Source: Catenuloplanes indicus (lineage in GTDB: Bacteria > Actinomycetota > Actinomycetes > Mycobacteriales > Micromonosporaceae). Taken from it: a stretch of 64,000 nucleotides of DNA. The stretch lies in the NCBI RefSeq assembly GCF_030813715.1, contig NZ_JAUSUZ010000001.1:1984001-2048000 (forward strand), in the 5' to 3' direction. Under the pieces are notes generated by a model. The model worked only from the letters and a program-made list of their open reading frames with translations, had not been told where the DNA came from and did no database searches. Below are positions 15,111 to 45,496 of this stretch, piece after piece; positions within the stretch are counted from its first letter, which is position 1, and each line of letters starts with the position of its first letter. The translations under genes were made by a program, and so were the position numbers.

Positions 15111-15142
15111 CCTGGCGGCGGGCATCCGATCCCGCCGCCAGG
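15111..15142 (+). terminator. 12-bp hairpin after the murE-like gene
   Basis: CCTGGCGGCGGG (15111-15122) pairs exactly with 15131-15142 over an 8-nt loop, starting 7 nt after the stop codon. This marks the end of the femX-murE unit. Confidence 0.75.
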
Positions 15143-16639: not shown

Positions 16640-19600
16640 TCAGCAGTTGGACGCCGCGTAGATGATCGTGTCGATCAGCTTCGCCCGCATCTGCGCGAGC
16701 TCGTCCCCCTCGGCCAGGCCGTCCTTGAAAGCGGTGAGCCGGGTGGTCCAGGACACCCGGTCGTACGGATCCAGACAGTCCTGGTAGGAGCCGTTGACGC
16801 CCTTGGTGATCTCGCCGATCCGGTCGAAGATCGGCTTCAGCCGCGGGTGGGTCAGCGGATCCGCGTCCAGCACGGCCTTGTCGTCGGGAAGGGCCAGCAG
16901 CTCGATGACCGCCTCGGTCATCGTCGCGCTCGCGCGATCCTTGCTCGTGACGGCGGTGATGCGCAGCATGGACAGGACCTGCGGACCGGTCAGGGCCCCG
17001 GCCACCAGCATCTGGAACAACAGACCGTCCCACGGGAACCGAGCCTGCCGGTCACCGGTCACCCGCACGAAGTCGTAGACGAACGTGGCCGGCACCCGGC
17101 CACGTTCCGCGCTCCACGCCGGCTCCACGCCCAGAGTCGTGACCGTCACCGGCTTCGGGCCGTCCTGCGGACCCACGCCACCGAACTCGCGTGCCACCTC
17201 CAACACGGTCCGGAAGACAGCCAGGCGTGCATCGCCCGGGCTCGCCTCGGCCAGCCGGGTCAGCGCCGCGACGGTGGCCGGCTCGTGCAACCGCTGCCAG
17301 TTCTTCCGGTGATATGCCTCCGCCGGGCCCGGATCCCGGGTTCGCAGCCACTCCGCCAACGCCGTCGGAAGCCCGCCGACCGCACCGCGGGACACGGTCC
17401 GGGCCCGGTCGAACACCGCGACGGACGGCTCGCTCTCCAGATCACCGACGGTCTCACCGTCCGCATTACGCAACCGCCACGCACTACCGGAACCGGCCAA
17501 CTCGACGGCCAGAGTGACGGGCTGCAACTGCCCACGCACCTCGTCGAGGAGCCGCTGACCATAACCGGTCGCCCGGGCAACGACCACCAGCGGCGCTGGA
17601 CCGATGCGCTGGTACCAGCTCAGCATCTCGGTCAGCTCCTCGACCACCGCCTCGGTCGCCTCCGGCGCACCGGCCAGGTCCACCGCGATCACCGGCCGGT
17701 CGGCGTGCCGGGCGTTCGCACGTACCGCATCGAGGATCTGCCGCGGCTGCGACGTCCACGCGCCGAGCGTGAGCACCGGCATCGGCGCCGGCCACCAGGC
17801 ACCCGGGAAGACACCCGTCCGTACTGCCGCGTCCAGCGCCAGCAGCGGCCGCACCACCGGATGGGTCTCGTCCGGGACCAACCGGGCCACCTGCCGGATC
17901 GCATCGCTGATCCGGAACTGCGCGTCCGGCCCGGCCGGGTCCTCGATCGCCCGCATCGCCTCCGACCAGGCCCGTCGCGCGGCGGGTTCGGTCCGGGTCA
18001 GCTCGTCGACGCCCGGCCGGGCCAGCGCGGCAGCGACTCGGACATCGTCCGGCTCCGCCGGGGCCGGAGCCAGGATCGAGTCCAGCGACGGCCGGGGGAC
18101 CGCCAGCACCGGGAAGGCCATCGGAGCGTCGAACGAGGCGGCCACCCGGCGGACCGTCTCCGCGACGGCGTCGACCGCATCGGCCACCTGGCCGGACAGA
18201 GGCCTGCCGCGCAGCGCGTACAGCACCGCGTCGGCGTCGGCGAGCTGTGCCCGGTGTTCGACCAGCATCCCGGTGTACTCATGGAGTTGATCGATCGGGA
18301 TGCCGGTCGACACCGCCAGTACCGCACGCAACGTGTGCTGGACGATGACGTCCCGCGGTCCACCGCCGGCAGCGGGCCGGGTGAGCAACCAGAGATTTCG
18401 CACGGTCCGGGCATCCAGCACCGGAAGGTCGTACATCTCCGAGTCGGAGTCAGAGCCGGGGTCGATCAGTTGCAGCAGCCGATCCAGGCGAACGCCGGGA
18501 TCGCTCGCGCCGAGGTAGTCGTACGCCCTGGTGTCGATGTCCAAGGCGGTCAGCTCGAAGGCGGCGGCGTAGGCACGGGCTCGCGGGCCGGCGCCGGAGT
18601 CCTGCAGGATCGCGTTCACCCGGGCTCGGGTCAGCGTCTTGACCATCGGCCCGGTGAGGACCGCCAGCTCCTGCAGGCGCCGCTGCGCCTCGTAGGCGAG
18701 ATGCAGGTCCGATGTCGCAAGCCAGGCTCGGATCGCGCCGTCGATCAGCGCCTCTGACGGCGCGGGCACCGCGGCGGCCTCCGCCAGCCGATGCATGGCC
18801 GTCACCCACAGTCCGGCCTGGTCCGCGTCCATGGCCGCGACCGCCGCTCCAGCCATCTCACCCGCCCGGGCAGTGTCCCGGACGAGCATCAGGCCGATGG
18901 CATCCGCCATGCGCCGCTCGGACACCGGCAGGCCGGGTGTGCTGAGGAGCACCGCGTGCGCCACGCCGAAGCCCTCCGGCGTGACGGCGCCCACCAGTGT
19001 TCGCAGGGCATTCGTCCACTCTGCGGGCCGCGTCTTCCGCAGCAGAGCGACGGCCTGGTCCGCTCTCAGTCCGTGGGAGTCACGTTCCAGCGCCGTCACC
19101 AGCCCGCCGAGTTCGCGGATTCGCCGGCTGGCGACGAGTGCGTCGCCGACTGCGGCCCAGTCTTTCCACCGGCCGGATCGGTCCTCGGTCAACCAGCGGC
19201 GCGCCACCGGCTGTGCGATCGCCGCGGCGATCCGCCACATCCTGCCGCCGAGCTCGCGATTACCGGCCGCAGCCTCCATCGGCGCACGAAGCACCAGCAT
19301 CGAGGACCACTGGTCGCGCTCCGCATCGGTGATGCCCGCCGCGACGGCGGCGGACAGCTGCTGAGCGGCCTCGGTGATCTCCCCCGCGGCAAGATGCGCG
19401 ACCGCGCGGAACATCGCGCGGTGGACCGGGGAACCGGTCACCTCGCCGCCGGTCTCCGTCAGCGGTACGGTGCGCAGCGGCTCCAGGTCCTCGATCTGCG
19501 CGTACCTCGACCGGATTCCGTCAGCCAGGTGCCGGTACAGATCCCGTGCCTGCCGCATCGTCATCCAGGGCTCGCCCGCGGAGCGGACCTCCTGCACCGC

Positions 19601-22600
19601 GAGTCGGTGCTTCACCCGGCCACCGTTCGTATCCAGCGCCGGCAACGTGGTGGTGCTGCCCCACACCAGTTCTGGCGGCATCACACCGCCGGTGAGCGCG
19701 GCATGCAGGTATTCACCGACGGCCGGCCCCGTCCTGGCACCGAACTGTGCCCAGTTTCCGCCGGTGATCCCGGCCAGCTCCGGATGGTTCTCGCCGGCCC
19801 GCCGCATCCGGCCCAGGAACTCACCGTTGTGCTGCAGGTACGTCCGGCCGAACTCGTCGTGGATCTCGTCGGCTTGCAGTGACATACCGAACGCCGTCCA
19901 CCAGGGCAGATCGCCCCACAACTGCCGGTGGTCGTGCCGGGACAGCGTCGCGACGTGTGCCTTCACGACCTCGGTGCCGGGCGTCCAGGAGTCCATGTAT
20001 CCGGCACTGTGCGAATAGAACTGCGCCACAACGCCCTCGACCGCGGTCCCCACCCGCTCCGGCGTGGCGAAGCCCAGCGCGCGGAGGAAGCCTGCGAGAC
20101 CAGCGGCCGTCCGCGTGCCGAACTCGGCGCCCTCCTGCTGTCCCAGCTTGGTCCGGTACGGCACCGGCCCCAGCTCCGTATCGTAGGTGAGGGTGGAATC
20201 CCGCCACGTCACCTCGGTGACGTCGGCCAGGAAGTCCTTGAGCTGCTCGGTCGGCGAGCCCAGCGACAGGTGGACACGGTTACCGCTGGTGGCGCCCTCG
20301 GGTGGTGATCCGACGATGACGTCCCCGACGCCGGGCACCATGACGAGGGCGGTGCCGTCGATGACGTGGGCGAGGTTCTCGCCGGGCCGGCCCGGCTCGG
20401 TGTCGACGTCCCCGAATCTCCGATCGAGGACATCGAGCTGATCCCAGAAGTCATCGGTGTCCGGTATCCGGTTCTCCTCGCCGGGCAGGATACCGAGGAC
20501 GCCGGCACGCTGCTCGACGATGTCGGTGCTGGCCGTCCACTCGTCCGCGTCCGCCGGGGTGAGGTGATACGTGCCGTCCCGCTTGTAGAGTTCCGTCGTG
20601 TCCGAGATCAACTCGATGCTCTGGTCCGCCGTGGCGGCGAACACCGTGCCGCTGTGGGCGTCCCGGGGCAGCACCATCGGCATGGTCCGCTCGGCCTCCA
20701 GGCCACCACCGAAGTAGCCCCTGCTGGCCTTCGGGTCCAGCACGGGCGCTGTGCGGGACTGCGACTCCAGCGGTGCCGCGGCCGCGGCCCGGACCGCACC
20801 GTTCGGATCGATCACGATCGCCCGGGTATACGTACCCGCCTCGTCCGGCACCTCGTCCGGCTCCCCGGCTCGGGGCGGTGACCCGGGGTCGGTCAGGTTG
20901 AGCCAGATCACTCCCGCATCGGCGGTGTGGTACGCCGCGTACACATGGCCGTACGCCGTGCCCACACGCTCGGTCAGCACCACGGCCGTCGATCCCTTGC
21001 CCAGCCCCTGGCCGGCGGCCAACCGGGTGCTCAGGTCCGTCCAGCTGCCGAAGCGCTGCCAGTCCTCGCGGTCGCCCAGCCAGGTCTCCGCGTCCCGGCC
21101 GGGTATCGGCTCCTCACGGGTGCGCGGAACCCGCACACCGTGGCCCAGCCGGCCGCCCGGATGCAGCCGGCGCACCAGGTCCTGCACCAGCGCAAGGCAC
21201 TCGGGGATCGTCCGGTCACCGGCGGCCCCGACCGCCTCCTGCCACAGCACCCGCAACTCATCGGCGGTCATGCCCCGCCCGGCGTCTCCGGCCCCGTCCG
21301 GGGCCGCGTCCGCGGGAGACCCGGCCGTCCGCCCGGCGACGGCCGTCCATGCCCGGCCGATCACGGTCGCGGCGTCGTCCTGCGGCCCGTTCACCACGGT
21401 GGCGTCGTGCAGCAGCGGCGCCCACACGCGCGCGAACACCGACGACAGTTCGGTGGCACGCACGGCCGTCACCTCGGCCAGTGCCGCGCCCGCCGTCTCC
21501 CGTACCGACGGCGGCAGCGCGGCCCGGCCGGTCAGCACCGCGCGCAGTACGTCGCCACGTGTCCAACCGGCGAACGCGGCGAACACGGACGCCGGTTCGA
21601 CCAGGCTCAGCAGCAACTCAGGGGCGGTAAGGCCCGCGGCAGTACCCAGCTCCGCGGCCCGCAGGTACAGCTGATCACCGTCCGGCACGATCTCCGGCAA
21701 CCGCAGCGCCGGATCGGTGCGGACCGGGCCGGGCCCGACCGGCACCGACGCGCCGGTCAGGCCGGCCGGCGCCGGCTCCTCGCCCGCACGGTGGAACAGC
21801 ATCGCCAGCTGGGCCCGCGCCGAAGCGTCGCCGACCAGCGAGAACAGTCGCCGTGCGGCCAGATCCTCAGCGGGTTCGCCGGTACTGACGAACAGCAGCT
21901 CGTCCAGGCCGGGAAGCCGGTCCGGGTCACGGGCCGCGTCCACCATCGCGTCGAACAGCAGCACCGCGGCTTGGAGCTGGCCGGTGCCGACCGCGTTGAG
22001 GTCGAAGACGACCGCATCCGTGTCCCGCCAGGCGAGGTCCAGCCGCATCACCCGGCTCGGCGTCCGGTGGTCGGCGACCAGCTCGGCGAAGGACGCCCAG
22101 CCCGGCCGGGCGCCGTGTGCCGCTTCGGTCCCGGTGACCGGTGGGACGAGACCGAGACGATGCAGCACCGGAAGATGCGTGTAGAAGAGCTGGGCCAGCC
22201 GGAGGTACGCGGCGGCGTCACCGCGGTAACCGGTACGGATCCGGATCGCGGCGAGACCCGGCTGTGGCACCTGCGCGTGCTTCGCACCGAACACGCTCTC
22301 GGTCAGCGCACCGAGTGATCGCCAGCCGTTGCTGAGCGCCGCGACGGACGCGGTGACCGTGCCGGCCGTCAGGTCTCCGCGGGCGGAGCGCGCCGCGAGA
22401 CGAACCCCGTCGCGAATGGTGTCGGGGTGCGCGCCCGGCGGGATCGACAGCACGATCTCGGTGTTGCCGGGCAGCGGAACGTCCAGCAGGACCGGTACCT
22501 GATCGGCCGTGAACGTGCCCGTCTGCCGCCTGTCCCGGTTCGGCGCGGCGGCCGCAGCCGCGGCGGCGCGAATCAGGTCGTACGCGTCCTCCGGGTGATC

Positions 22601-37600: not shown

Positions 37601-40600
37601 CAGGTAGGTGGCACGTGCCCGCTCCACCACCTCACGCGGGAAGCGCGCCGGAAGCTCGCTGACCGGCAACCCGAACACTCCGGCGGGCAGCGCGGTCATC
37701 GCGAAAGCCGGGTGCTCCCAGCGCAGGACGCCGGCGGGCTCCTGCCCCCATCGGGACAGGCCCAGCAGCGTCGCCTCGGCGACGGACAGGCCGTACGGCA
37801 GGCCCACGTGGTCATCACCGGGGTGCCACGGCGCGAGGACCCACAGCGCGCCCGCCTGCCAGCGATCCTCCGGGGTCTTGAACAAGATGTTCAAGAGCCG
37901 GTTCTCCCGGTCGCCGGGAAAGGCATACCCTCGCCACCGGTTGTCGAGCGGCTGCCCGGCCTCGGACGGGTGCCGGACGGCCGTCGCCTCGGCAATTCCG
38001 GTGAAGTCACGCTCAGCCGCTGCGACCAGGCCCAGCAGCGTCTTGATCTGTACCTGCAGCACCGGCAGGTCGAGAACCGGGTCGAGGCCGGAGATTCCGA
38101 GACCGCGATGACTCAGGGCCGCCAGGCGGCCGGCCCGCGACCGTACCCAGCCATCGGCGGGGTCGGTCAGCAGGCGATCGATGACGTCTCGATGCATCTC
38201 CATCAGGGCCCGCACGGCGGGTTCGGTCCGCTCGCTCGCGACCCCGACGTGCACGGTCATCGAGCCGTCGACCGGCTGCGCGCCGAACCGTTTCAGGGTG
38301 TGCAGCAGCGCGCCGAGATCCCGCCAGGGCCGGGCCGAGCGGCTCAGATCGGCCGACGTCAGCCGCAACGCCTCGTCCCGCGGGCGCAGCGCGCCGGTCG
38401 CACCGAGCGCGGTGAGCCGCTTGGTGACCTCATGGGCTCTGGATCCGGACGAGACCGCGGTCCACGAGTTGGCCGTCCGGCGGACCGGGAACGTGACCTT
38501 CATGGACAGCCTGAGCGACCGGGCGAGACCGGCGTTTCCGTCATCGGTGTGCGGCACCGGGTGCAGGCCGGCCCGCACCCGGGCCGACAGCCACTCGACG
38601 AGCTGCTGCGGCGTCGAGCCGGCCGGCGCACCGAGCTCGGCGCGCGGCCACGCATAGGACGGCGGCGGGGTCCGGTCGAGGACCGGCCCCATCCCGGCCG
38701 GCGGCCGAACCTCGGTGGCCTCGGCCGGCCGGCCGTCGATCATTCGTTGCGACGGCTGATCAACGACGTGGAAGAGGGCTGCTACCTGCCAGCGCGCCAC
38801 CGGATCGGAGATCAACGGCAGGATCCACCGGATGTCCTCGTCGTTCCGGCGCCGCAGCGGGGCCGGCTCGTCCGGGTCGGCATGTGCCTCCAGGAGCGCC
38901 CACCGGCCGAGATCCGGGATCCGGTCGGGGGTCCGTGCCACCGTCAGGAAGACATCGAGGATCGTGACAGCCACCTGCATCTGGGCCACGGTCACCGCGT
39001 CCAGGTGCAGCAGCGCCACGCCGGCTTTCCGGTCCAGCTGCAGGACCCGTCCCGTGTCCCGGTGAAAGCGGAAGAACTCCTCGGGGGTGATCCAGCCCGT
39101 TCCGGGCCAGGTCAGGGACGGGCCGGACGGAGCGAGCAGGCCCATCCGGCGCAGCACCGGCAGGGTGGCGTAGAAGATCTGGGCAAGCCTGAAGTACGCC
39201 TGCTGGTCCTGGCCGAATCGGGTCTTCATCTCGATCGCGGCGGCATAGGGCCGGGGAACCGCGTCGTTCTCGTGCAGTCCCCGCACGATCCGGTCGAGCG
39301 ATTCCCAGCCGTGGGTGAGCGCGGCCAGTGGGATCGTGGCGTATCCCCCGGCCCGTTCCGCTGTCGGCGCCTCGGCATCGAACAGCACGTCCACCTCGTC
39401 GGCGTCATCGAGCGCCTGCATCAGCAACTGCGCATCGGCCGGTATCGGCACCGCGGCGGCCAGCGGCACAATCCCATGGGTGCGAGACTCGCCGCCGAGC
39501 GCGGTGCGCAGCATGTCCGACGCGTCGTCCGGGTGACTCCTCGCCAGCGCGGTCAGCGCGTCGCCGGCGAGGCTCCCGCTCGCCAGGCGCACCCGGAGCA
39601 TCAGCTCCCGGGCCGCCCGCGGCTCCATCGCGAGCAGCTTCCCCAGATCACTGCGGTTGCCATGCTTGTGAAGCGCCTCGTTCGCCGAACGCAGCTCCCG
39701 TTCAGCCACGTGCGCGTGCTCGGCCAGCCTGCGAACCCAATCCGGGTACCCGTCAGACAGCCGGCGGGCGAGGTCATCGTGTCCCTTCTCGGCGAACGGC
39801 ATGTACCGATCAGCCAGGATGATGCTGCTCATCCGCGTGTTGTGGGCGGCCGCGGCGGACAGCAGCAATCGGGGTGGAATCCTGGTCGCCGCGAAGTACT
39901 GCGTCAACGCCGCGGGGACGGCGCCGGATTTGATGGCGATCGTCATCAACGATTCGGTCACCACCGGCAGTGACATCGGATCGAACGGCCCCGTCGTCGC
40001 CCGGCCCGGCCTCGGTCGCCGTCGGATCGTCTCCGCGGCGCCGTCCGGCAGACTGGCGATGACGCGATCGACCGAACCGAAACGGGAAAGTCCGTCGCCG
40101 GCCTGAGGGGCGAGCGCAGCAAGGAAACGATCGTCCCGGGTCAGGACGGCGGTATCGACGGACAGCCTCGCGGCGAACGCGAAGAGCAGGTCAGCGCGCA
40201 CACCGAGCCGCTCGGCGTCCTCCCGCAGACCGGACGGGACGTCGCCGATGCGCACCGCGTAGGACAGCACCCAGATGGCGGGCACTCGCAGGCGGGCGGC
40301 AAGGTCGGCGATCCGATGGAGGTCCAGCTCGAACTGGTCCGCCAGCTCGTGCAGCGCCCGCCGCCAGTCTTCCGCCCACGACACCGGCATGTTGTCGGGG
40401 AGGGAGTCCGGATCGATACCCATCCACAGGGCCTGGACCTCGTCTGCATGCCACGCCGGTGCTGCGTCCCGGTGCCGCCAGCGGAATCCGGCCAGTGCGA
40501 GGCCTTCCAGGTAGGTGGTCACGTCGGTGCCGGCCGCCGCAGCCGCATCCCCGACCTCTTGCGCCAGCCGGTCCGCCGTCGGCACGTTCTCGTGCGATGC

Positions 40601-43600
40601 GAAACGGAACACGGTCGAGACGAGTGACGGATCGACGGACCAACGATTCGCCAACCCGGCGATCAGGCCGATCGGCATGCCGGATGCTGCGCCAAGGGCG
40701 GGCAGCTCGGTGGGGACGCGGTGAATCGCGATCGCGAGGGCACGCAGGTACGGGACCGGCTGATCGTTCTCGTCGAGCAACGCGGCCAGCAGGCGAGGGC
40801 TGAGCCAGGGGCGTTCGCGGAAGTCCGCCCGGAGGTCATCGGCCGAAACCGCGGGGAGCCGGCCGGCCCAGGAGCCGGCGAGCCAGGAGTCGGCGAGCCC
40901 CGCGATACCCGCGGGGCTGAGTGCGGCTCGGCCGAAGGCCGGGGGCGCGTCGCCGAGAGCGGTCAGAATGTCGCTGTCCGATAGGCGATCCGGCGTGCGG
41001 TTCGTCGGATGCTCGGCCATCGCCGCCCCGTATCCCGCGGCGAAGTCGGCGAGCCGATCCGCGGCCTCCCGGTACAGGCCGCGTACCGGCAGCGGAACCC
41101 GATCCGAGCGCAGGTACTCGTTGGCGTACCGGAAGACCTCTCGAACGTAGTCCACTGTGGCGCGGGTCAGGGTGGCCTGCTGCGCCCAGCCGGCATGAGC
41201 ACCGAGGGCATTTTCCGGCGCCGATGGCAACTGGAGCGCCAAGCCGGCCTCCAGATGCCGTTCCCCAGCGGCATCCACCCTCTCCCGGGACTCCTGCGGC
41301 TGCGGATGGGCCTCGTCCAACGCCCCCAGAATCCGGTAACTACGCCTCACCAGCAGGTTCCGGTTTCTCCACTCGCCGATCGAGTCGTAGAGCAGGGGAG
41401 GGTTGCTTGACGGCCGGCTCAGCGGATACAGCTCTGCCACGAAACCGAGGCGGAATACCTCTTTCGACCAGTCCGACAGCTCTTTGAGCATCCTCAGGTC
41501 CGGTCCGGACGACGACTGCGCGGCTGCTGACCCGAGGGCCAGTTCCAGGCGGTCCGCCTGCTGATCCAGGCCGTCGAGAAGTTCTGCGTACCGGTTCTCG
41601 GACAGGCGCGGTATCCGGTTCAGCAGCTCGGTCATGTGCGCGGTGTCGATCCAGGCGCCACCATGGCCGTGCATCCACCGGAACACCTGCCGGAACGTCC
41701 AGGGCAGCCGCATCCGGTCGTCGAGCACGAGCGAGATGCGCGTCGCCGTCTCGGTCAGCGCCGCGGCCAGCGCGTCCGGATCGCCCTGCACGTCGCCGAG
41801 CAGGGCGGCGAACGGCAACAGGTGAACGGGGTCCACCCCGCCCCTGATCCGCGTCGCCACCCGGAGCATCTTCGCCGGGTCGAGTCCCCGCAACAGGGCC
41901 GCCCAGGGCAGGTGGACCGGCACGCAGCCGATCCGCAGCGACAGCTCGGTCAGCGTCCGAAGGTCGGACCGGTGCAGCCCGGCCCGGATCGCGGTACTCC
42001 GGATCGCGAACGGGTCACCCCATGGCGTGTCCAGCAGCCGGTCGAACGTCGCCTCGTCGACCCCCAGCTCGGCCAGCCACCATGCGCGGTCCGCGGCGCT
42101 GATCACGCGGTCCGACGGCGCCGGCGGGGAAAAGCCGGCCAGCTTCCGCGTGTGGTCAGCGGTCATCATCAGCGCGACGTCGCCGAAGAACTCGTGCAGC
42201 AGCAGTTCGGCGTGCCGGGACGGCAGCAGCCCGGCCAGCGCGCCCGGCTCGACGCCGAGCCGCCCGGCCAGCCGCACGATGCGGCGGGCGGCTCCCACGT
42301 CCCGTCGCGACTGCTCGGCAGCGTCCGGGCCGGCCAACGCCGGAGCGAGGACACCGGCCCTGCGCATTATCGTGACGAGCCGGTCCACGATCCTCGTGGA
42401 CCAGCGCCGATACTGTGCGGCCAGCTCGTCGCTGAGCAGCTGCGCCGCGGCGCGCATCTGCTCGGCCTCCGTCTCCGTGGCCCCTTCGGCGGGCTCGGGC
42501 CATGCCTGCCACGGTCCAGGAACGCCGGCCACGTACCGGCGCCACCGATGTTCCTGACCGATCCGTTCCTCGTACTCGTCCGCCTCGGCGCCCTCGTACG
42601 GGCTGCCGAGTTCCCCGACGGCAAGCCGCACCCATGCCGCGACGCCGGCCAGGTATGCCGGAGCCACACCCAGGCCGTTGGCGAGCGCGGTCACCTCCGC
42701 CGCGCTCCGCAACCCCAGCTCCGACGCGCCGAGATCCGCGCTGGACGACATGCGCACCCGCAGCCGCGCGGCGTCCATCGCGGCCCTCAGGTCGGCGTCA
42801 CGCAGCGTGGCCAACAGCTCCGGTGCCACCTGCTCGGCGGTGAACGTCAGCAGCGCCGCCAGATCCGTCTCGGTCAGGCGCAGCCGGCCGGCCACCTCGG
42901 CCAGCCAGGCGATGTCCGAATAGGTCCGCACGCCGGACGGTCGCAGACGCTCCAGCAGATCGGCCGCCCGCAACGTGCCCGAGACAGCGAGCGCCCGCAG
43001 GTGCGGGCCGAAGACCACGAGTAAGCCGGGATCGAGCTTCAGGTCAAAGGCGATCCGCAGGAGCGGACCGGACACGGCCAACCCGATCCGGCCCGCGGCG
43101 ACCGCGACGTCGTCCGGCACCCGGTCGATGACCTGGATCCAGTCGACCAGAGCCGCCGCACTCAAATCTTCGGCTCCGGGCTGATGCTGCAACGCGGACA
43201 GCCGGGCCGGGGTAAGCGCGATCTCCGCATCGTCCCGCAACCGCTGCCAGCGACCCGGGTCGACGCCGTCCGGTGCGGGCGCGGACTCGCGGTGGTCGTA
43301 GCCGGGCGGGGCGGTCGGGACGGACCGGAGCGGGACGAGCACACGCACCGCCGTGGCCACGTCGAGCAGCACCTCGACCGCGCCGTCCGTCTTCATCACC
43401 GTACCGTCGGTCAGCGTGACCTCAAGGTCACCACGGACCACCGCCCGATACTGCCCACCGATCCGGACCATGACGAACGCAGACCCGACGCGCAGCCGGA
43501 ACACCGAACCGGCACCTGAATCCATACCGGACAGTCGTTCGGTCAAGAAGCGCTGGGCTTCCTGACGCTGCCGCACATTCATCAGAGCCAGCGTCTGTGG

Positions 43601-45481
43601 CGCGACGGCCCCGACGACAGCCTGTCCGCCCGCCCACACCTCCGGGTCGAGCACGACGGTGTCGTCGACCGGGAAAGCCGGCGGTTCCGGGCCGGTCAGC
43701 AGCGTGGGCGGGTTCTGGACCGTCACCTGCTCCCACACACCGAGCGGGCCGATCTCCACCGGCTCGCCAAGGCCCTCGATCCGCACGCCGAGCTCGAGCC
43801 GGCCGCCGTAGCTGACGTTGCGCGCGGTGACCGATTCGGGCCGGTAGGTACCGACACGCCGGGCCGACAGCACGATCGAGGCGCCACGCAGGGCTTCGGG
43901 TACCCCCGTTCCGGCACCTCCGTCGGGCAGCAGCCGCAGTCCGCCGTCGAGCAGCGTCCCCGCGAACCCGGCCAGTTCGTCCGTGGCGAGCCAGGCGGTG
44001 AGCGCATCGCCGGCCGCGTGGCCCGCGGGCCGCCAGCCCGGCCACGCCACTTCGGCCGGGCTCAGCAGTGCTTCGAGCCGCTCGATCACGGCATCGGCCA
44101 GCAAGTCCCGGCCGTCCGTACCGGGTGCGACCGCGATCGGGCGCGTCACCAGGGTCTCCGCACCGGCGGCATCCAGCCGGCCGGCCCGGATGCCGGTGGT
44201 AGGCGGCCGGCCCGCCGGGGTCAACGGCTGATACCGGTTCGCCGTGCCCGTCTCCGTCCGCACCATCGAGACCCCGACGAAGACGTCAGGGGCGTCGATC
44301 CGCCCGAACTGCTCTACCGAGCCGTCCTGGTGCACGAGGTGCAGGTGCACGTCCAGCATGCCACCCGCATCCGGCGCACCGGCGGCGACGGCAACGGCCG
44401 CACCGGCGGCGATGGCCCGGTCCCGGGAGTCCTGCGGAGCGCCGACCGGTTGCAGGCCGACCAGGAGCTCGGGCGAGACGCGTGGGTCGCGGCCGGCCGC
44501 CGGCCTGGTCTGCTGGACGCCGCCCCGGTAGCCGCGGCTGACCGGCCTGTCCAACAGCGCGGCCACCATCGATGCGGACTCCGGCGGCACGCCTGCCGGG
44601 CGCAGCACCACGCCGTTCGGGTCGATCACGACAGCTCGCGCGTACGTTGCCGGGTCGTGCCCGAACGGCGCGGCTCCGGTCCGGACCGTCCCGTCCGGAT
44701 CGACCAGGTTGGTCCAGGCGATCTGTCCACCCAGGGTGTGGTAGGCCAGATAGACGTGGCCGAACGCGGTGTGCGGCCGGTCGACCAGCACCACCGCGGC
44801 GGACTTCGGGCCGGCCGCGGACAGCCGGTCGTGCAGGTCCTGCCAGCCGCCGATCCGGGTGAAGTCCTCCCGGTCGCCGAGCCAGCGTTCCGCCGCCGAG
44901 CCCAGAGCCCCTTCCTCACGGGTACGCGGCACCCGTACCCGGTGAGCGAACACGCTGTCCGGGAACAGGCGGCCGGTCAGGTCACGGACCAGGGCGAGGC
45001 ACTCGGCGAGCGTGCGGTCACCGGTGCTCTCCGCCCGGCGGGCGCCGTCCGACAGCACCTCCCGGAACAGCGCATCCAGCTCGGTGACGGTGGCCGCGCG
45101 GCTTCGCGGATCGGTCCACGGATGCCCCGTCTCGGGCGACTCCGGCAGGACCGCCTCGATGCCGGACAGGCCGGCCAGGTCGTGCCAGTGCACCGGGTCG
45201 ATCCGGTCGCCGGGCACCGGCACGAACGCCAGCTCATCCGGCCGGTCCAGCAGGCCCAGCGTGCGGCCCAGCGCCTGCCGCGTGGTCGTGCTGTCCAGCG
45301 CGGCCCGCGGCACCACGACCGCGCTCCGGCCGTTCGGTACAGGTGCATCCCACGCCCGCAGGTACGCCGCCAGGTCAAGGCTTGCAGGTGTGTTACCGGG
45401 GTGGTAGTAGACCCGCGCCCCGGGCAGAGGCATGAGCATGCCGTCGCGGCAGACGATGTCGAACAGGGGCGCGATGGTCAA
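16640..45481 (-). CDS. Giant modular protein, 9,613 aa, with four papain-fold (Tox-PL-like) candidate domains
   Basis: The start is TTG 45481: AGGAG (45489-45493) lies 7 nt upstream and no ATG or GTG is better placed. The frame is open for 9,613 codons. Architecture by residue: N-terminal region 1-90; papain-like domain A1 ~95-300; module M1 ~447-2965; papain-like B1 ~2985-3110; module M2 ~3200-5690; B2 ~5765-5905; module M3 ~6068-7900; A2 ~8030-8240; unique tail to 9613 ending in Cys. Modules are almost wholly helical and Leu/Ala/Arg-rich, with recurring blocks such as PSRHAELLLHEFF, VVFGPHLRAL and RLAQLFYAxLPVLxRMGLL. There is no signal peptide, membrane segment, or adenylation, ketosynthase or carrier domain. 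Tox-PL domains in other proteins are glutamine deamidases or peptidases delivered as effectors; that role is inferred here. Location, target and partners are unknown. No immunity-like gene is evident next to it. Confidence 0.8.
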   Translation of the reverse strand: MTIAPLFDIVCRDGMLMPLPGARVYYHPGNTPASLDLAAYLRAWDAPVPNGRSAVVVPRAALDSTTTRQALGRTLGLLDRPDELAFVPVPGDRIDPVHWHDLAGLSGIEAVLPESPETGHPWTDPRSRAATVTELDALFREVLSDGARRAESTGDRTLAECLALVRDLTGRLFPDSVFAHRVRVPRTREEGALGSAAERWLGDREDFTRIGGWQDLHDRLSAAGPKSAAVVLVDRPHTAFGHVYLAYHTLGGQIAWTNLVDPDGTVRTGAAPFGHDPATYARAVVIDPNGVVLRPAGVPPESASMVAALLDRPVSRGYRGGVQQTRPAAGRDPRVSPELLVGLQPVGAPQDSRDRAIAAGAAVAVAAGAPDAGGMLDVHLHLVHQDGSVEQFGRIDAPDVFVGVSMVRTETGTANRYQPLTPAGRPPTTGIRAGRLDAAGAETLVTRPIAVAPGTDGRDLLADAVIERLEALLSPAEVAWPGWRPAGHAAGDALTAWLATDELAGFAGTLLDGGLRLLPDGGAGTGVPEALRGASIVLSARRVGTYRPESVTARNVSYGGRLELGVRIEGLGEPVEIGPLGVWEQVTVQNPPTLLTGPEPPAFPVDDTVVLDPEVWAGGQAVVGAVAPQTLALMNVRQRQEAQRFLTERLSGMDSGAGSVFRLRVGSAFVMVRIGGQYRAVVRGDLEVTLTDGTVMKTDGAVEVLLDVATAVRVLVPLRSVPTAPPGYDHRESAPAPDGVDPGRWQRLRDDAEIALTPARLSALQHQPGAEDLSAAALVDWIQVIDRVPDDVAVAAGRIGLAVSGPLLRIAFDLKLDPGLLVVFGPHLRALAVSGTLRAADLLERLRPSGVRTYSDIAWLAEVAGRLRLTETDLAALLTFTAEQVAPELLATLRDADLRAAMDAARLRVRMSSSADLGASELGLRSAAEVTALANGLGVAPAYLAGVAAWVRLAVGELGSPYEGAEADEYEERIGQEHRWRRYVAGVPGPWQAWPEPAEGATETEAEQMRAAAQLLSDELAAQYRRWSTRIVDRLVTIMRRAGVLAPALAGPDAAEQSRRDVGAARRIVRLAGRLGVEPGALAGLLPSRHAELLLHEFFGDVALMMTADHTRKLAGFSPPAPSDRVISAADRAWWLAELGVDEATFDRLLDTPWGDPFAIRSTAIRAGLHRSDLRTLTELSLRIGCVPVHLPWAALLRGLDPAKMLRVATRIRGGVDPVHLLPFAALLGDVQGDPDALAAALTETATRISLVLDDRMRLPWTFRQVFRWMHGHGGAWIDTAHMTELLNRIPRLSENRYAELLDGLDQQADRLELALGSAAAQSSSGPDLRMLKELSDWSKEVFRLGFVAELYPLSRPSSNPPLLYDSIGEWRNRNLLVRRSYRILGALDEAHPQPQESRERVDAAGERHLEAGLALQLPSAPENALGAHAGWAQQATLTRATVDYVREVFRYANEYLRSDRVPLPVRGLYREAADRLADFAAGYGAAMAEHPTNRTPDRLSDSDILTALGDAPPAFGRAALSPAGIAGLADSWLAGSWAGRLPAVSADDLRADFRERPWLSPRLLAALLDENDQPVPYLRALAIAIHRVPTELPALGAASGMPIGLIAGLANRWSVDPSLVSTVFRFASHENVPTADRLAQEVGDAAAAAGTDVTTYLEGLALAGFRWRHRDAAPAWHADEVQALWMGIDPDSLPDNMPVSWAEDWRRALHELADQFELDLHRIADLAARLRVPAIWVLSYAVRIGDVPSGLREDAERLGVRADLLFAFAARLSVDTAVLTRDDRFLAALAPQAGDGLSRFGSVDRVIASLPDGAAETIRRRPRPGRATTGPFDPMSLPVVTESLMTIAIKSGAVPAALTQYFAATRIPPRLLLSAAAAHNTRMSSIILADRYMPFAEKGHDDLARRLSDGYPDWVRRLAEHAHVAERELRSANEALHKHGNRSDLGKLLAMEPRAARELMLRVRLASGSLAGDALTALARSHPDDASDMLRTALGGESRTHGIVPLAAAVPIPADAQLLMQALDDADEVDVLFDAEAPTAERAGGYATIPLAALTHGWESLDRIVRGLHENDAVPRPYAAAIEMKTRFGQDQQAYFRLAQIFYATLPVLRRMGLLAPSGPSLTWPGTGWITPEEFFRFHRDTGRVLQLDRKAGVALLHLDAVTVAQMQVAVTILDVFLTVARTPDRIPDLGRWALLEAHADPDEPAPLRRRNDEDIRWILPLISDPVARWQVAALFHVVDQPSQRMIDGRPAEATEVRPPAGMGPVLDRTPPPSYAWPRAELGAPAGSTPQQLVEWLSARVRAGLHPVPHTDDGNAGLARSLRLSMKVTFPVRRTANSWTAVSSGSRAHEVTKRLTALGATGALRPRDEALRLTSADLSRSARPWRDLGALLHTLKRFGAQPVDGSMTVHVGVASERTEPAVRALMEMHRDVIDRLLTDPADGWVRSRAGRLAALSHRGLGISGLDPVLDLPVLQVQIKTLLGLVAAAERDFTGIAEATAVRHPSEAGQPLDNRWRGYAFPGDRENRLLNILFKTPEDRWQAGALWVLAPWHPGDDHVGLPYGLSVAEATLLGLSRWGQEPAGVLRWEHPAFAMTALPAGVFGLPVSELPARFPREVVERARATYLLAYPGDGELAVSHRASVARAAWADVTGSRRPAGWWQAWYSELGMSPGTGEERHLPVVRAQDRAVAGWVSRLLDADPGAEVLRDLDRWLAAHGGDEAARQQRREVRERLRPAVQPAGPPAGLRPIRVDTRLDPLLVSVFRSGLAQGVLPPDVGRSGAKTFDVVKSYVIEALRGSPGRFERMAGRTLGELLAEALPVGVLTGLDPGFRLSVPERADDGGAALELALANERLRLRSEVAAAFDRGNPVLIDLLHRVLGDDDELLTDGLIRAVKELLDGEPARLPTRTAVLTTLIDHYSPDGSVAVPELLWTVSLALNTTVVVAEDGLRTAYGPGGGSTLHVERDPVDGFRMLADPRRLLAEAAAVPALWDGTATDCVDRVELLLILLDVPLLHVATTDTISLDLLGARLGGRFQKPTRGAALIALPIGTVTPVWIVERAHMVLVYRHDDENFTLIETQANGADRVQPFTLSRRGDGLPAALAGTVRLLGNEDAAVLGVDFVDKRIIAGPSGSAAPPADRTVEALLDGGGRPGMMRRPAPIRQQAAADLTPRRGRTSTGRLPAARLAGPGAMMVTVRPIAIEPGRDGRHAVSDAVTAWRTTLPDADAASWDGWRIEGRAGAGAPIAELLSTDMLPGYATALLGPGLRIVPAGDASRPVPPMLRDASLTVFARREGEYRPESVSGRQLHYDGRLQLVVGAAGLDGLDRPVRIGPVALWERAIAPAPSAMLPGIPALPGRPGPAQPIDAEMWADGRALIGEVTTEARQWFAGQGMPHAREFITRGLTDSARSGIGLSGVAPVDIVRLGDLSRVVFRGDLVIQRRPDDAVTVYRNAVEVLLDPDVARQMPGWSVPDRAPVVADEARRRRLQADDAVAFTPDRLESLIRLLGSGVVSPERLVRWIEVIRRVPDDASGIAARAGLTVAEPLLRLAAELVVDPRWLVVFGPHLRALASAGTVRATDLLDRLRDFGVRTVPDIVWLAEVAGRLDLDETDLPALLTFPGEQVAPELLAMLRDDDLTAAMATARMRVVMTSSPDLGAERLGLRDRGEVIALAAELGVRPVYLAGISSRVLLAATRVRSAESGTAPDVIQRIADEVAASLVEDGLAVPAYSEVTTSPGEDGSGVAAGSDDARRTRVRAVRDVMGLTGRLGVYPGALAALLPSRHAELLLHEFFADVPLAGVPGYLRKLTDSAPPPYRRPVSDAERARWSDELGVPGGTIEELLRFPWGDPERVLAVANRAGLDRAGRAMLTRLSLQIGTIPFELGWMSVWRGVEPEVVLLVAARIEGGVHPAGLMPFQALLNRFVAPARKNESASLLAGKMTGVMRFHAPVLDERMQLPWLFRQMFRWMHDQGSGWIDTGVLPARLRDIPRLPVERYTILGSDLRDRESRLKAAVQTALESPGVPGELRALLTEIGTWFARIRADFESDLGTLVIATAGRGPLEYDRSDEIDRQQGRVRIEERVAHLALLAAAEVPEAVTERLRTAGAERQRAIGTFSTVHRAPEATHSRHTWALQTAMIQWDLEFTEALAAYTGVVLRSVSASPEVEAVADSLSEAVSTYRSAKAFHPVNRTVEKLTDGEIGQMLASAPPGPGRDSLADHEVGLIADSWVADSWSADLTDITVANIMSDVQERPWLNPTSLSRLSRLTGRPAGEMRELAIRHHRIPADELPNIARTIRIDGAAPGNAERAGVPAATVVELAVRLTVDPLLIRVLDVVPGTGNTVDVDAVERMVGEAAGAAGTDVATYLESLAVSGYTWSTRDRAPHWDSAEVLSAWTGVARTTLADGGHSPKLRKDWRSVLDELATLRQLDRHAMSVLAARLGIPPSWVLSFSVRFGVPADLPAIAGRLGVRPDLLFAFAAGIPADPAVLTPADGTALLRQPVPGPRFASATRAIEALSEARLEALRRRVSPGGRVGWDKPVPAGGAEPASPRSLPPVTESLWRIALATGNVPVRLHALFEFSRTDPRDLILIAEQLRRPVGVVALAERFMSTADVESSGDARARLLAGYQPWADRIRAHAHLTEDELVWANEALRAHRDQGNLRTLGTTEPRDARQLMLQLRLEFARLTGSALEALLRDHPGEATEMIRTAVGDRSFTHRIAPPMASGLPLPAGTEVILPRPGRRVRDRIAVEAPRALFDVDRVVLPLETLRHGWASFKRIMQPMVDETTRTVPRAAIRVHTRFGREDGAYLRLAQLFYAGLPVLHRMGLLATAGPGTGSVRAGWTDFADFAADHANPGRGMLVENPERRNGAVVFHLGPVTRAQLQAAVAVFAALVEAARRPGRVEDLDSWEFPEAGSYADDSVALHRRHEDTGRRLFELITDPAARLQAFTVFQVVGWASGERAPAVRPPVGMGPVLGQGTVTGTGWQPPVRNRPAGGTVERWLRERVESGLHPVPHTGDGTARPDRALTVSAELTFPVRRTANPWTAVPAGKRAGRIVELAGAPFPGLLHESGGRWWLTVQDLNGPERYWQKVAAVLDALTHAGAEPVRGSLSVRVGPVGERTFGALRELMTRYEDVLHRLTTDPADDRVRSRAGRTVDRRPDGELVFDGLDLARDLPVVQTQLKTVLGLVRAAEQGFTGEPAAAHEPGGGTPLGDRWWTFAPPDDRTKRFLDLLFPDADDRWQAHALFVTTPWHPGDDHAGLPSGVSAAEAEALGWPAPWPDSPQELIMREHPAFATAVLGDGPVADAATLLPARYLHGLVARARLAHRLAYPGGGRQELAYRDWMAKHTWAEPARSLRSPGWWKAWYAERGETPNADSSVLPVPGDGPADVAGWVSEVLATDPGLDVLRDLERQLAALDPDGPGREQRTELRRRIAEAAGTLVPSAVPRPDLIAGDPLPEEQLESVLRFARAQGVLPAAMTDGERASMSASVDYVLRVMRTKPERFAAMPGRTIGELVAQALPIGALLALRPGFRPAEPDRAERAQWAAVAGDAAAEQRWAEEQRVRLRRDVAARLDRGDRLMIDIVGRAVAERVEDDDIDAVLSALSDRLKDEPATLPNLPELLADVLAHFFTGNSVAQPELLGAIAIALEIRIVLSEEGLQTAYGPQAGRTLHLERDPSGDLRPLQTAEAEPAVALGEAAGRPWSLERTDSGLSADDVSGGVRTPSAIGLPRIVVTPEPPEPPDGADERLRAAMNALPPWDATAPDCADRIESLLVAIAAPGLAVFSEFDGVRRPRDRVAELLGGAFGPAADAFGLSRMDIGSLTPVWIEPPPEGARTPDNAAAHMVAVDRVGADRYRLLDTQHKTIIEYSLRELLQRLAGTVHLVTDGEGRLLQLDAASGVPVAGAEGTAAGSRTVAALLDPHLARSREPGFAPRPAPVAPDESAVPDVAVVGLAAGSEVTDLTSAVAVTRPGLAGAGAAQDDPGAFAQQHDLRLHVWGTDGTVRRYGRQGAPEVFLVRRTGPAGETGYQPLVPAAARTSRTVLKGADLDDDLPSRGLAVAAGEPGRDPDGTLTRAVVAELQKLGGPEGSWDRWRLAGGTGPGRPLSDLLSARSLDTNRVALLGDDINLVAAPRDGETEIPATLRDVTLEVRARRAGPYRPSGISTDGVEFTGPLPVTVSVTGLAQQPLGFTGAAGPVLFADTVAPPDPGLLITGPDRTGAADRPFTLPAGVWSEEHAILGGVSAVGLPPMLANRYLLTSRVAATDNAYPRVSLHDPVPAGLVRIGDQLRFAVHVSMTVDTVDQRGQRASQPIRGTAEVLLDLPAAAAARDQWTVVAAPPAWTRHAPGPGDVDADRWQRMTGAGSPRITRTQLEMLRALPGSAGVPSERLLHWIETLGETPHDIAGTAARIGLRMPGPLLDLAVSLGMDPKALVVFGAQVREMAGVGPADGGRLLSRLTRYNVRSLDEIVQLGQIGARLGLDEADLPALTSFIEEGVPLELLLALPESSLTVAVDTARQRVQISTGADRGAATLGLRDRAEVSAIAAALGVGERHLAAVVPEIRSALAGLGDPYAGPAGDRLESRPGEYRERGAAGEWGPWRALPQDREQAQSLQAGFAAQWEARGRRVAAEVQRLLNAAGRTSDETVGRYVTLSARLGIPVTDLQFLLPSRHVELLSHEFFGDVPLELMRDQWGLLLPEAPTPSFDLLRGLPRRDWTAEEAERWRLRLNVESDLFADFLALPTADPEQLIEMMRRAGLDETDLPGLVRLSAQIGWVRVELGSIAFRLNVTGRQLFQVATGDPLAIDPFHLAAFGRSVANAVVGEAAAGRPRIEAGSLARQLIETAREYSPVRDPWLREAWLFRQAARWSAPRSGGRIDVLRLATRLSQLPFAPLQEFGQYGLDLDDALMLFESAASSAREGLGRDPARELLRTVTRWAGALRYTIGEDLESVREAEIPMQWPLKEPLERLRSLGTQTAGLHEAVAGNAAVPEHLATALDEAKSRFDQALDAAFDQALDAAGRVAGRPGGLPLSAGNQAFSTALNQHLAYVRALGASTGAVLRAAGPQVAGTSQGTGDPTGDRRPGTEPGPAGPGPLRTLADRLDELVEVYARGVRLYPVQRAADTLTDAEIGQYLTGLDDDNAARLTSDEIDRAGELWVRAAWPAELDIQSSLLIYDFLHRPWLEPRRVLDLSAQLNRTPTQIRAVAARANRLPTGVSDVARLARQRPGTVLDLALRWRIDPTRLSVLDVNTVGMNDAVAAIEREVKQRATAEEASVEKYIDALATAGYSFSQRQDSYESLWKRPEVLSALMGVGVDEIRAFALGRGNIEPLVTRWYTMLTELAAVLRLDEHEIAVLAADLLVPPSWVRTVSIQLGRVPTDLPEQARNLGVRDAGWLLALAQRIGVRPSAFTDADGLRTLRTEVVDERRFGPVDRMIERLGSTGIAQIRRRPGAVPHHVWQPQGTVLTPITESLWSIFRSHGFRSSALPRNLADLADRSGMDMRDLAHIGAQLGLTLDRVVFAAQYLTTDSKSSDPRQRLLDGYRPWVDRLSRHAHVGENELVWANELIRQVRNYVGLQRLTTMTPRAAREFVLGHRMRTGRITLAAIGDLARDHPEDAYDLIRAAAAAAAAPNRDRRQTGTFTADQVPVLLDVPLPGNTEIVLSIPPGAHPDTIRDGVRLAARSARGDLTAGTVTASVAALSNGWRSLGALTESVFGAKHAQVPQPGLAAIRIRTGYRGDAAAYLRLAQLFYTHLPVLHRLGLVPPVTGTEAAHGARPGWASFAELVADHRTPSRVMRLDLAWRDTDAVVFDLNAVGTGQLQAAVLLFDAMVDAARDPDRLPGLDELLFVSTGEPAEDLAARRLFSLVGDASARAQLAMLFHRAGEEPAPAGLTGASVPVGPGPVRTDPALRLPEIVPDGDQLYLRAAELGTAAGLTAPELLLSLVEPASVFAAFAGWTRGDVLRAVLTGRAALPPSVRETAGAALAEVTAVRATELSSVFARVWAPLLHDATVVNGPQDDAATVIGRAWTAVAGRTAGSPADAAPDGAGDAGRGMTADELRVLWQEAVGAAGDRTIPECLALVQDLVRRLHPGGRLGHGVRVPRTREEPIPGRDAETWLGDREDWQRFGSWTDLSTRLAAGQGLGKGSTAVVLTERVGTAYGHVYAAYHTADAGVIWLNLTDPGSPPRAGEPDEVPDEAGTYTRAIVIDPNGAVRAAAAAPLESQSRTAPVLDPKASRGYFGGGLEAERTMPMVLPRDAHSGTVFAATADQSIELISDTTELYKRDGTYHLTPADADEWTASTDIVEQRAGVLGILPGEENRIPDTDDFWDQLDVLDRRFGDVDTEPGRPGENLAHVIDGTALVMVPGVGDVIVGSPPEGATSGNRVHLSLGSPTEQLKDFLADVTEVTWRDSTLTYDTELGPVPYRTKLGQQEGAEFGTRTAAGLAGFLRALGFATPERVGTAVEGVVAQFYSHSAGYMDSWTPGTEVVKAHVATLSRHDHRQLWGDLPWWTAFGMSLQADEIHDEFGRTYLQHNGEFLGRMRRAGENHPELAGITGGNWAQFGARTGPAVGEYLHAALTGGVMPPELVWGSTTTLPALDTNGGRVKHRLAVQEVRSAGEPWMTMRQARDLYRHLADGIRSRYAQIEDLEPLRTVPLTETGGEVTGSPVHRAMFRAVAHLAAGEITEAAQQLSAAVAAGITDAERDQWSSMLVLRAPMEAAAGNRELGGRMWRIAAAIAQPVARRWLTEDRSGRWKDWAAVGDALVASRRIRELGGLVTALERDSHGLRADQAVALLRKTRPAEWTNALRTLVGAVTPEGFGVAHAVLLSTPGLPVSERRMADAIGLMLVRDTARAGEMAGAAVAAMDADQAGLWVTAMHRLAEAAAVPAPSEALIDGAIRAWLATSDLHLAYEAQRRLQELAVLTGPMVKTLTRARVNAILQDSGAGPRARAYAAAFELTALDIDTRAYDYLGASDPGVRLDRLLQLIDPGSDSDSEMYDLPVLDARTVRNLWLLTRPAAGGGPRDVIVQHTLRAVLAVSTGIPIDQLHEYTGMLVEHRAQLADADAVLYALRGRPLSGQVADAVDAVAETVRRVAASFDAPMAFPVLAVPRPSLDSILAPAPAEPDDVRVAAALARPGVDELTRTEPAARRAWSEAMRAIEDPAGPDAQFRISDAIRQVARLVPDETHPVVRPLLALDAAVRTGVFPGAWWPAPMPVLTLGAWTSQPRQILDAVRANARHADRPVIAVDLAGAPEATEAVVEELTEMLSWYQRIGPAPLVVVARATGYGQRLLDEVRGQLQPVTLAVELAGSGSAWRLRNADGETVGDLESEPSVAVFDRARTVSRGAVGGLPTALAEWLRTRDPGPAEAYHRKNWQRLHEPATVAALTRLAEASPGDARLAVFRTVLEVAREFGGVGPQDGPKPVTVTTLGVEPAWSAERGRVPATFVYDFVRVTGDRQARFPWDGLLFQMLVAGALTGPQVLSMLRITAVTSKDRASATMTEAVIELLALPDDKAVLDADPLTHPRLKPIFDRIGEITKGVNGSYQDCLDPYDRVSWTTRLTAFKDGLAEGDELAQMRAKLIDTIIYAASNC
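20762..21394 (-). other. Papain-fold domain A2 of the giant protein (residues ~8030-8240)
   Basis: Cys8095 in IPECLALVQDL, His8179 in GHVYAAYHT and Asp8198 in NLTDPGS; shares VRVPRTREE, WLGDREDW and a following AIVIDPNGAV with A1. Confidence 0.6.
21785..27289 (-). repeat. Module M3 of the giant protein (residues ~6065-7899), shortened
   Basis: Begins SRGLAVAAGEPGRD and keeps the beta-rich start (GPYRPSGISTDGVEFTG), LLPSRHVELLSHEFFGDV (~6680) and RLAQLFYTHLPVLHRLGLV (~7770), but lacks the amidoligase-like and OTU-like ends present in M1 and M2. Confidence 0.6.
27767..28189 (-). other. Papain-fold domain B2 of the giant protein (residues ~5765-5905)
   Basis: Cys5779 in APDCADRIESLL, His5857 in AAAHMVAVDR and Asp5873 in RLLDTQHK; same layout as B1, preceded by a TPVWI strand in both. 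Confidence 0.6.
28412..35899 (-). repeat. Module M2 of the giant protein (residues ~3195-5690)
   Basis: Same order as M1: RPIAIEPGRDGRHAV, beta-rich GEYRPESVSGRQLHYDGR, helical repeats with PSRHAELLLHEFFADV (~3781), RLAQLFYAGLPVLHRMGLL (~4820), FPVRRTANPWTAV (~5042) and a final GLQTAYGPQAGRTLHLERD. Identity to M1 is high only in these blocks, indicating an old duplication. Confidence 0.6.
36152..36529 (-). other. Papain-fold domain B1 of the giant protein (residues ~2985-3110)
   Basis: Candidate residues Cys3000 in ATDCVDRVELLL, His3064 in VERAHMVLVYR and Glu3080 in LIETQ. Here the acid is Glu where B2 has Asp; the following Gln3082 matches the D-P-Q of Tox-PL domains. Confidence 0.55.
36587..44164 (-). 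repeat. Module M1 of the giant protein (residues ~440-2965)
   Basis: Begins RPIAVAPGTDGRDLL, then a beta-rich region (GTYRPESVTARNVSYGG), then over 1,500 residues of helical repeats, an amidoligase-like block (~2326-2480: VTFPVRRTANSWTAV ... GSMTVHVGVASERT) and an OTU-like block (~2867-2963: VPELLWTVSLALNTTVVVAE, then GLRTAYGPGGGSTLHVERD). The latter two assignments are pattern-level only. Confidence 0.6.
44584..45199 (-). other. Papain-fold domain A1 of the giant protein (residues ~95-300)
   Basis: Candidate triad: Cys161 in LAECLALVRDL, His242 in GHVYLAYHT and Asp261 in NLVDPDG. The spacing and surroundings (Cys at a helix N terminus, His on a strand, Asp followed by a turn) fit the Tox-PL/papain-fold glutamine deamidase pattern. 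The intervening VRVPRTREE and WLGDREDF blocks recur in A2, about 7,930 residues later. Confidence 0.6.
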
Positions 45482-45488: not shown

Positions 45489-45496
45489 CTCCTAGG
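45489..45496 (-). promoter_or_regulatory. Ribosome binding site fixing the TTG start of the giant gene
   Basis: CCTAGGAG on the minus strand, AGGAG ending 7 nt before TTG. It is the only good Shine-Dalgarno near the start of the frame. Confidence 0.7.

Follow-up and report, generated by a model that had tools for sequence, protein, structure and literature searches.

A 64,000-nucleotide (nt) stretch of the chromosome of Catenuloplanes indicus, a soil bacterium of the family Micromonosporaceae (NZ_JAUSUZ010000001.1, positions 1,984,001 to 2,048,000), referred to here as the window, contains a single gene of 9,613 codons on the minus strand (16640..45481). We describe its integrity, its modular architecture and cysteine (Cys) pattern, its giant relatives and a partner gene found beside many of them. 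The gene starts with TTG at 45481-45479, stops at 16640-16642 and occupies most of a stop-to-stop frame of 9,626 codons (16640-45520). A ribosome-binding site, AGGAG (45489..45493, minus strand), was read from the sequence 7 nt ahead of the start codon. Guanine-plus-cytosine (GC) content at each codon position varies little across the ten blocks of at most 1,000 codons (GC1 0.73-0.80, GC2 0.51-0.55, GC3 0.86-0.90), and the chance that a random frame of the same base composition would stay open for 9,613 codons is ~10^-71. A preliminary description of this DNA had claimed one unbroken frame of 28,842 bp, uniform high-GC codon use and a genuine ribosome site; all three were borne out, and the strand, the paralogues, the partner gene and the Cys pattern, absent from that description, are added here.

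The frame was compared with that of the closest paralogue (G000:C1:7461529-7480350, where G000 is the same genome) over 5,642 aligned codons (16,926 nt); the two differ at 2,657 nt, and the alignment has 42 gap blocks. Neither aligned frame contains a stop codon, whereas substitutions simulated without constraint at the same divergence gave a mean of 48 stops and a minimum of 34 (n = 200). The ratio of nonsynonymous to synonymous substitution rates (dN/dS) is 0.27-0.84 and below 1 in 15 of 15 windows of the alignment. The preliminary description had allowed for a sequencing error merging several genes; such a fusion is unlikely, because the paralogues show the same module order and the chromosome is a single 9.18-Mb contig (genome 9.25 Mb, 2 contigs). 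An antisense frame inside the gene (34775-39973, plus strand; 1,732 codons, or 1,901 from stop to stop) is probably a by-product of high GC.

Modular architecture and cysteine pattern

The architecture was derived from self-comparison, comparison with paralogues and hidden Markov models (HMMs) of the modules; segment borders within a cassette are our own division. The order is N-domain, papain-like A1, cassette I, papain-like B1, cassette II, papain-like B2, cassette III, papain-like A2, linker and C-domain, all encoded on the minus strand. The N-domain (45113..45481; amino acids (aa) 1-123) has HMM matches in paralogues and a Cys11 column invariant in 8 of 8 sequences (alignment A5, with starts chosen by us). 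The repeat unit consists of a ~2,600-aa cassette followed by papain-like B, and occurs in three copies, the third shortened and without B. Each cassette is composed of a beta-rich-looking segment, helical segments and alpha/beta-looking segments; in cassette I (36527..44353; aa 377-2985) these fall at aa 377-760, 780-2040 and 2060-2985, respectively. Cassette II (28352..35983; aa 3167-5710) was placed by self-comparison, paralogue comparison and HMMs, and cassette III (21758..27469; aa 6005-7908) lacks the final ~700 aa. The linker (18122..20689; aa 8265-9120) is shared with a 1,919-aa paralogue at 1.78 Mb, and the C-domain (16643..18055; aa 9143-9613, ~470 aa) ends the chain. A structural model of 1,181 cassette residues (aa 780-1960) contained 60 helices and no strand at a mean predicted local distance difference test score (pLDDT) of 47.5; with the look of the sequence, this suggests, at low confidence, that the region is helical. 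The term "helical repeat protein" in the preliminary description suits one long stretch; the cassettes also hold beta-rich-looking and alpha/beta-looking segments.

PF15644 was the only Pfam match to the protein at E<=1, and NCBIfam gave none at that threshold. Non-ribosomal peptide synthetase (NRPS) and polyketide synthase (PKS) domains (A, C, PCP, KS, AT), Rhs and WXG were all missing from both searches at E<=1, as the preliminary description had stated for NRPS, PKS, Rhs and WXG signatures. A PADLOC search was empty at E<=0.1, and a role in anti-phage defence was rejected on this result. Two candidates suggested by the look of the repeats and motifs were also dropped. One is a Tc-toxin-like helical shell: EsxS (E 0.52) was the only PDB chain that the helical-segment profile matched at E<=1, and the structural model of the segment is poor (pLDDT 47.5). 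The other is a set of degenerate cassette folds of amidoligase or OTU type, neither of which Pfam finds and which we do not claim.

The papain-like domains are of two types. A1 (44513..45097; aa 129-323) carries C161, GHVY and W-NL-DP, followed by LLDxPVSRGYRGG, and its copies were aligned; A2 (20702..21265; aa 8073-8260) carries C8095. In five of five A copies C, GHVY and W-NL occur in that order, the third triad residue being our reading of the motif. B1 (36002..36541; aa 2981-3160) has C3000, AHMV and ETQ, and B2 (27638..28201; aa 5761-5948), whose copies were also aligned, has C5779, AHMV and DTQ; we infer a papain-like fold for the B copies from this C-H-[E/D]xQ motif alone. PF15644 (Tox-PL1) matches A1 at aa 194-256 with E 7.6e-4 and 21 bits against a cut-off of 24.1, and with 26.0 bits, above the cut-off, in a second search, in support of the papain-fold candidates of the preliminary description. 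The match is stronger in a 4,206-codon paralogue (E 2.3e-18, three stretches). The resemblance to Tox-PL1 lies in the C-H-D/N pattern of A1 and A2 and the C-H-[E/D]xQ of B1 and B2; the difference is that A1, the only copy in the giant recognised by Pfam, scores 21-26 bits around the cut-off, and the B copies are not seen at all. Tox-PL1 domains are described as coming mostly from polymorphic toxins, where internal copies are likely auto-processing peptidases (PMC3482391). Tandem LLPEPLRG repeats were seen inserted in a papain-like B domain of a 4,572-codon paralogue (L032 868-1545).

The giant protein contains eight Cys residues, at positions 11, 161, 1186, 3000, 5779, 8095, 9569 and 9613. Four are the predicted papain-like nucleophiles, one lies in the N-domain, two in the C-domain, and one (Cys1186, also present in the closest paralogue) is stray. 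From 127 other gene calls of 150-900 aa in the fetched regions, with family members excluded, 62 Cys would be expected at the pooled rate (59 when the partners are included); the 33 calls that reach 400 aa give 54 by their own pooled rate and 48 by their median. The Poisson probability of eight Cys ranges from 5e-18 to 1e-12. Cys-free proteins of ordinary size are not unusual (4 of the 33 calls of 400-900 aa have none), which tempers what can be read into Cys depletion; so Cys-poor a chain of 9,613 aa is unusual. An 11,805-codon frame from another genus has three Cys overall.

The C-domain, its partner and giant relatives

The Cys pair of the C-domain is invariant in 10 of 10 sequences of alignment A1, all from the genome that holds the window. 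At 20 of 20 fetched C-domain places (eight genomes, with one place from the window's own), exactly two Cys occur within 400 residues of the end: one is 42-54 residues away from it and the other is the last (19) or second-last (1) residue; the two surveys cover 30 of about 39 known places. In a model of the C-domain (pLDDT 67), two terminal helices span 383-399 and 405-422, C380 directly preceding the first and C424 directly following the second, and the pair would meet in such an arrangement. Foldseek found no PDB structure at E<=0.001 for this model (predicted template modelling score 0.54), and when profiles of the C-domain, the partner and papain-like B were searched against the PDB, no match had an E below 0.066.

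A partner gene adjoins 13 of the 20 fetched C-domain loci, as frames of 678-793 codons in 12 and a short one in the remaining locus, and is the only neighbour recurring in more than five of the 20. The 13 aligned partners (alignment A4; six from the window's own genome, starts chosen by us) have an invariant C14 and a last or second-last Cys, so that giant and partner each carry one Cys near the start and one at the very end. A profile alignment (hhalign) of the C-domain with the C-terminal part of the partner extended over 298 columns through the last Cys (probability 96.9, E 1.9e-10), by which measure the two are homologous. C-domains were found in all five Catenuloplanes genomes examined, and a species-collection scan returned as its only named relatives two loci from a single strain of Catenuloplanes japonicus. 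Among 300 Micromonosporaceae genomes, matches reaching the end of the C-domain occurred in eight (16 with any match) and end-reaching partner matches in the same eight (22 with any match), with neither in the other 292; the scan scored 3-5 candidates per genome, so these absences are uncertain. Six of the eight (G000-G004, G290) had given rows to alignment A4, and only G015 and G301 are independent. Across 396 genomes of the phylum the C-domain was detected in two, the window's own and one weak match (E 5.9e-4).

In the window, a 43-codon relic of the 3' end of a partner gene (45554..45682, minus strand), ending in ...DVTTCP, lies directly upstream of the giant. Over 197 bp, the relic region matches the 3' end of the partner at 7459410-7461512 and the DNA that follows it, with 85% identity. 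Judging by this match, the window giant was probably copied from the pair at 7.46 Mb with the partner left behind.

Besides one stub, the genome holds 12 more places with a C-domain. An island at 7.30-7.51 Mb has nine of them, whose frames range from 1,203 to 6,274 codons, and the others are at 1.73, 1.78 and 7.63 Mb; cassette copies per paralogue range from 0 to 3. Identity to the closest paralogue is mosaic, reaching 98.4% over 2,038 nt (aa 660-1339) and 93.4% over 3,223 nt (aa 2090-3161), with 89% over aa 5-324 and 81-84% in most other long blocks. We read this pattern as suggesting gene conversion between paralogues. The 1,919-aa paralogue at 1.78 Mb is 37.7% identical to the giant over aa 8081-9613 and matches giants of Streptomyces plasmids over about 400-630 aa. 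Two further irregularities were noted. The 4,206-codon relative (G000:C1:7433938-7449997) stops, and an overlapping 1,162-codon frame holds its C-domain, an apparent break by frame change. The stub at 1.63 Mb (G000:C1:1632157-1634073) has N- and C-terminal family pieces in separate short frames and is a remnant of a giant.

Giants also occur in sister genomes, with 14,755 codons in G001 (G001:C1:1227517-1271781; 44 kb, the longest relative met) and 12,360 in G002, the latter cut by a contig end. By HMM these have one and two sets, respectively, of helical and alpha/beta-looking segments and papain-A matches, and no beta-rich segment, papain-like B, N-domain or C-domain. The N-terminal region of the 14,755-codon giant has a strongly hydrophobic stretch (maximum 2.69) and appears type VII secretion system (T7SS)-like on reading the sequence. 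The gene is the single giant gene that the preliminary description reported, but its supposed rarity has to be tempered by the 12 further places in the same genome and the longer frames of sister species.

Genomic setting and probable links to type VII secretion

Window positions 12261-15283 and 54268 onward are collinear with two sister genomes, G003 and G004, which hold about 7 and 9.3 kb of other DNA between these flanks; in G001 the match was restricted to 11033-15274 within the 40 kb compared. By these alignments, the giant lies within a 39-kb block (15283-54268) that is variable between species and absent from two sister species at this site. An integrase gene stands beside a tRNA-Leu gene at 11003-12345; collinearity with the two sister genomes begins exactly at the tRNA end (12261), and with the third inside the integrase (11033). 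To the left of this pair the GC content is lower (0.68), and an insertion sequence-type integrase is found at 9797-10660. A search of 104 kb for an attachment (att) repeat of the tRNA-Leu gave only short chance matches. Viral contigs yielded no C-domain relative, and plasmids had no match to the last 1,000 aa of the giant; phage or plasmid origin was rejected on these two results. The first 1,000 aa match two plasmids. Downstream of the giant is a gene for a DUF5980 protein, and neither a WXG100 gene nor a megasynthase domain was found among the 20 neighbouring open reading frames of the window that were scanned.

The proposed T7SS connection comes from relatives. WXG100-like genes occur near five of the 20 fetched loci and once in the paralogue island (E 2e-10 to 5e-5), and are homologues of the WXG100 gene ahead of a Streptomyces coelicoflavus giant. 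The plasmid giants of S. coelicoflavus lie between genes annotated as WXG100 targets and T7SS-associated; beside one of them, two T7SS-associated genes match NF033532 ("lone7para_assoc"), and one annotated WXG100 target falls below the NCBIfam WXG100 cut-off. The NF033532 model scores above its cut-off in NZ_CP108219.1 and G002, and short WXG100-like frames were recognised, by eye only, upstream of the 14,755-codon sister giant. Taken from these gene neighbourhoods, T7SS-linked export of the giant is likely. Two neighbouring proteins have WXG100-like C-terminal ends below cut-off, one of 3,223 aa (G000:C1:7376443-7386114) with no RHS match at E<=0.05 and one of about 980 aa (L064 4275-8162) with RHS repeats by Pfam.

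Function and relation to known giant proteins

We propose, with a probability of about one half, that the gene encodes an exported giant effector of the polymorphic-toxin type, belonging to a T7SS-linked actinobacterial family commonly made with a ~700-aa partner. Recombination of variable modules between paralogues, as in polymorphic toxins, was found here in the mosaic identity and the variation in cassette number. The proposed mechanism starts from the gene integrity, architecture, cysteine pattern, pairing and mosaic identity described above, and extends to export, cleavage, toxicity, target and thiol locking. The giant would be exported, possibly escorted by the partner through a WXG100-dependent (type VII) machine, and its cassettes would serve as long helical arms, either extending its reach or binding the target cell. 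The papain-like domains may cleave the chain at linkers between cassettes, or may themselves serve as toxic enzymes. The near-absence of Cys beyond the predicted active sites and the two ends would keep wrong disulfides from forming once the protein is outside the cell. A C-terminal helical hairpin, clamped by Cys9569 and Cys9613, could dock on the homologous end of the partner. Recombination between paralogues would reshuffle and multiply the cassettes. A further reading, which we regard as rather improbable, is an undescribed two-protein export system. Here the Cys-poor giant and its ~700-aa partner would recognise each other at their homologous C-terminal ends, where thiol chemistry, for example a terminal disulfide, would join or lock them, and the papain-like domains would then cut the giant into cassettes at the target.

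Several observations weigh against this proposal. The window giant has no intact partner. Pfam finds no WXG or LXG domain in it, the N-domain being of another kind, and no signal peptide was apparent by eye (no prediction program was used; the highest 19-residue hydrophobicity is 1.74). The two EccB-type T7SS genes of the genome (4.50 and 5.89 Mb) are distant from both the window and the paralogue island, and NF033532 was not found in the genome, in a search in which no control matched. With Pfam, the six WXG100-like neighbours are below cut-off (2/6) or unmatched (4/6), and the first 1,000 aa of one Streptomyces giant contain no WXG domain by Pfam or NCBIfam. The N-domain does not align convincingly with the partner N-terminus (hhalign probability 1.7, E 0.03), though Cys aligns with Cys. 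Papain-like B has no Pfam match to papain folds, and A against B gave no convincing hhalign alignment (probability 0.4). The A profile (alignment A7, columns 85-164) matched ModA molybdate-binding proteins in the PDB (E 4.5e-5), a match that is probably spurious. No immunity gene was recognised, although no systematic search was made, and no toxic activity of any family member is reported in the material reviewed.

Three other explanations were weighed. The giant might instead be a surface or extracellular-matrix protein, serving adhesion or a hyphal or spore coat, with structural cassettes that are cross-linked or trimmed by the papain-like domains. Cassette number, which varies from 0 to 3 like a ruler, and a Cys-poor composition that fits an exported protein are both compatible with this idea, and a review of huge proteins lists surface proteins as one of the two main bacterial groups (PMC11573180); we nevertheless hold it to be unlikely, as Pfam and NCBIfam show no anchor or surface domain and a homologous block sits within T7SS loci of Streptomyces plasmids. 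Still less probable is an intracellular multi-enzyme or scaffold, such as an assembly line whose papain-like and amide-forming domains modify peptides or proteins. No secretion signal was recognised, which would agree with a cytoplasmic protein, and some alpha/beta-looking cassette segments are reminiscent of degenerate amidoligase or OTU folds, for which Pfam gives no match; but Cys depletion is unexpected in the reducing cytoplasm and the scanned neighbours (0/20) match no megasynthase domain.

It is equally improbable that the gene is a decaying orphan copy of the 7.46-Mb pair, duplicated without its partner and open but no longer functional. The 43-codon partner relic and the absence of the block from two sister species are what such a history might leave, but decay is hard to reconcile with an uninterrupted frame where about 48 stops would have accumulated without constraint, with the dN/dS values given above, and with the retention of every predicted nucleophile and the terminal Cys.

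The closest known kind is the giant actinobacterial multi-toxin proteins described by Zhang et al. in 2012, for example SACTE_5178 of 13,652 aa (PMC3482391). Both are actinobacterial, around or above 10,000 aa and equipped with internal papain-type peptidase domains (OTU in theirs; PF15644 in A1 here). The ART, lethal-factor, caspase and MCF1-SHE domains of those proteins are absent from the window giant at Pfam E<=1, where PF15644 is the single match rather than one of several different toxin or peptidase domains, and a paired partner and Cys-ended domains go unmentioned in the available portion of that paper; SACTE_5178 was compared by description only. Since neither a WXG domain nor multiple toxin domains were found, we set the gene apart as a variant rather than a plain member.

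Two S. coelicoflavus giants, WP_331727951.1 (10,045 aa) and WP_328565024.1 (11,009 aa), share the papain-A block at 33-34% identity over about 190-210 aa and resemble two of the paralogues over about 400-810 alignment columns at 24-29%; WP_328565024.1 also matches PF15644 below cut-off (E 1.6e-4). They differ in having a WXG-like N-terminus by eye (that of WP_328565024.1 has no Pfam or NCBIfam match), a C-terminus reading ...DPCQRAGW, no C-domain and no cassette by HMM, and a position within a T7SS-annotated locus with NF033532 genes. NF033532-associated "lone7" giants differ in their adjacent lone7para_assoc gene, of which none was found in the genome studied here. NRPS and PKS megasynthases are similar in gene length and modular repetition, but none of their domains occur in the giant. 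In the open-licence literature searched we found neither the terms "lonely Cys" and "lone7para", nor a description of the Catenuloplanes variant, nor a mechanism proposed since 2012 for actinobacterial giants of >10,000 residues.

Actinobacterial giants of >10,000 residues have been on record as presumed toxins since 2012, and the family described here adds three handles on them. Nearly every Cys marks a predicted active site or a chain end; in the sample searched, the genomes with the giant's C-domain are also those with the partner; and one genome offers an internal deletion series in the form of natural size variants with 0 to 3 cassettes. If the proposal is true, the family would reveal how chains of ~1 MDa are exported from a cell and processed.

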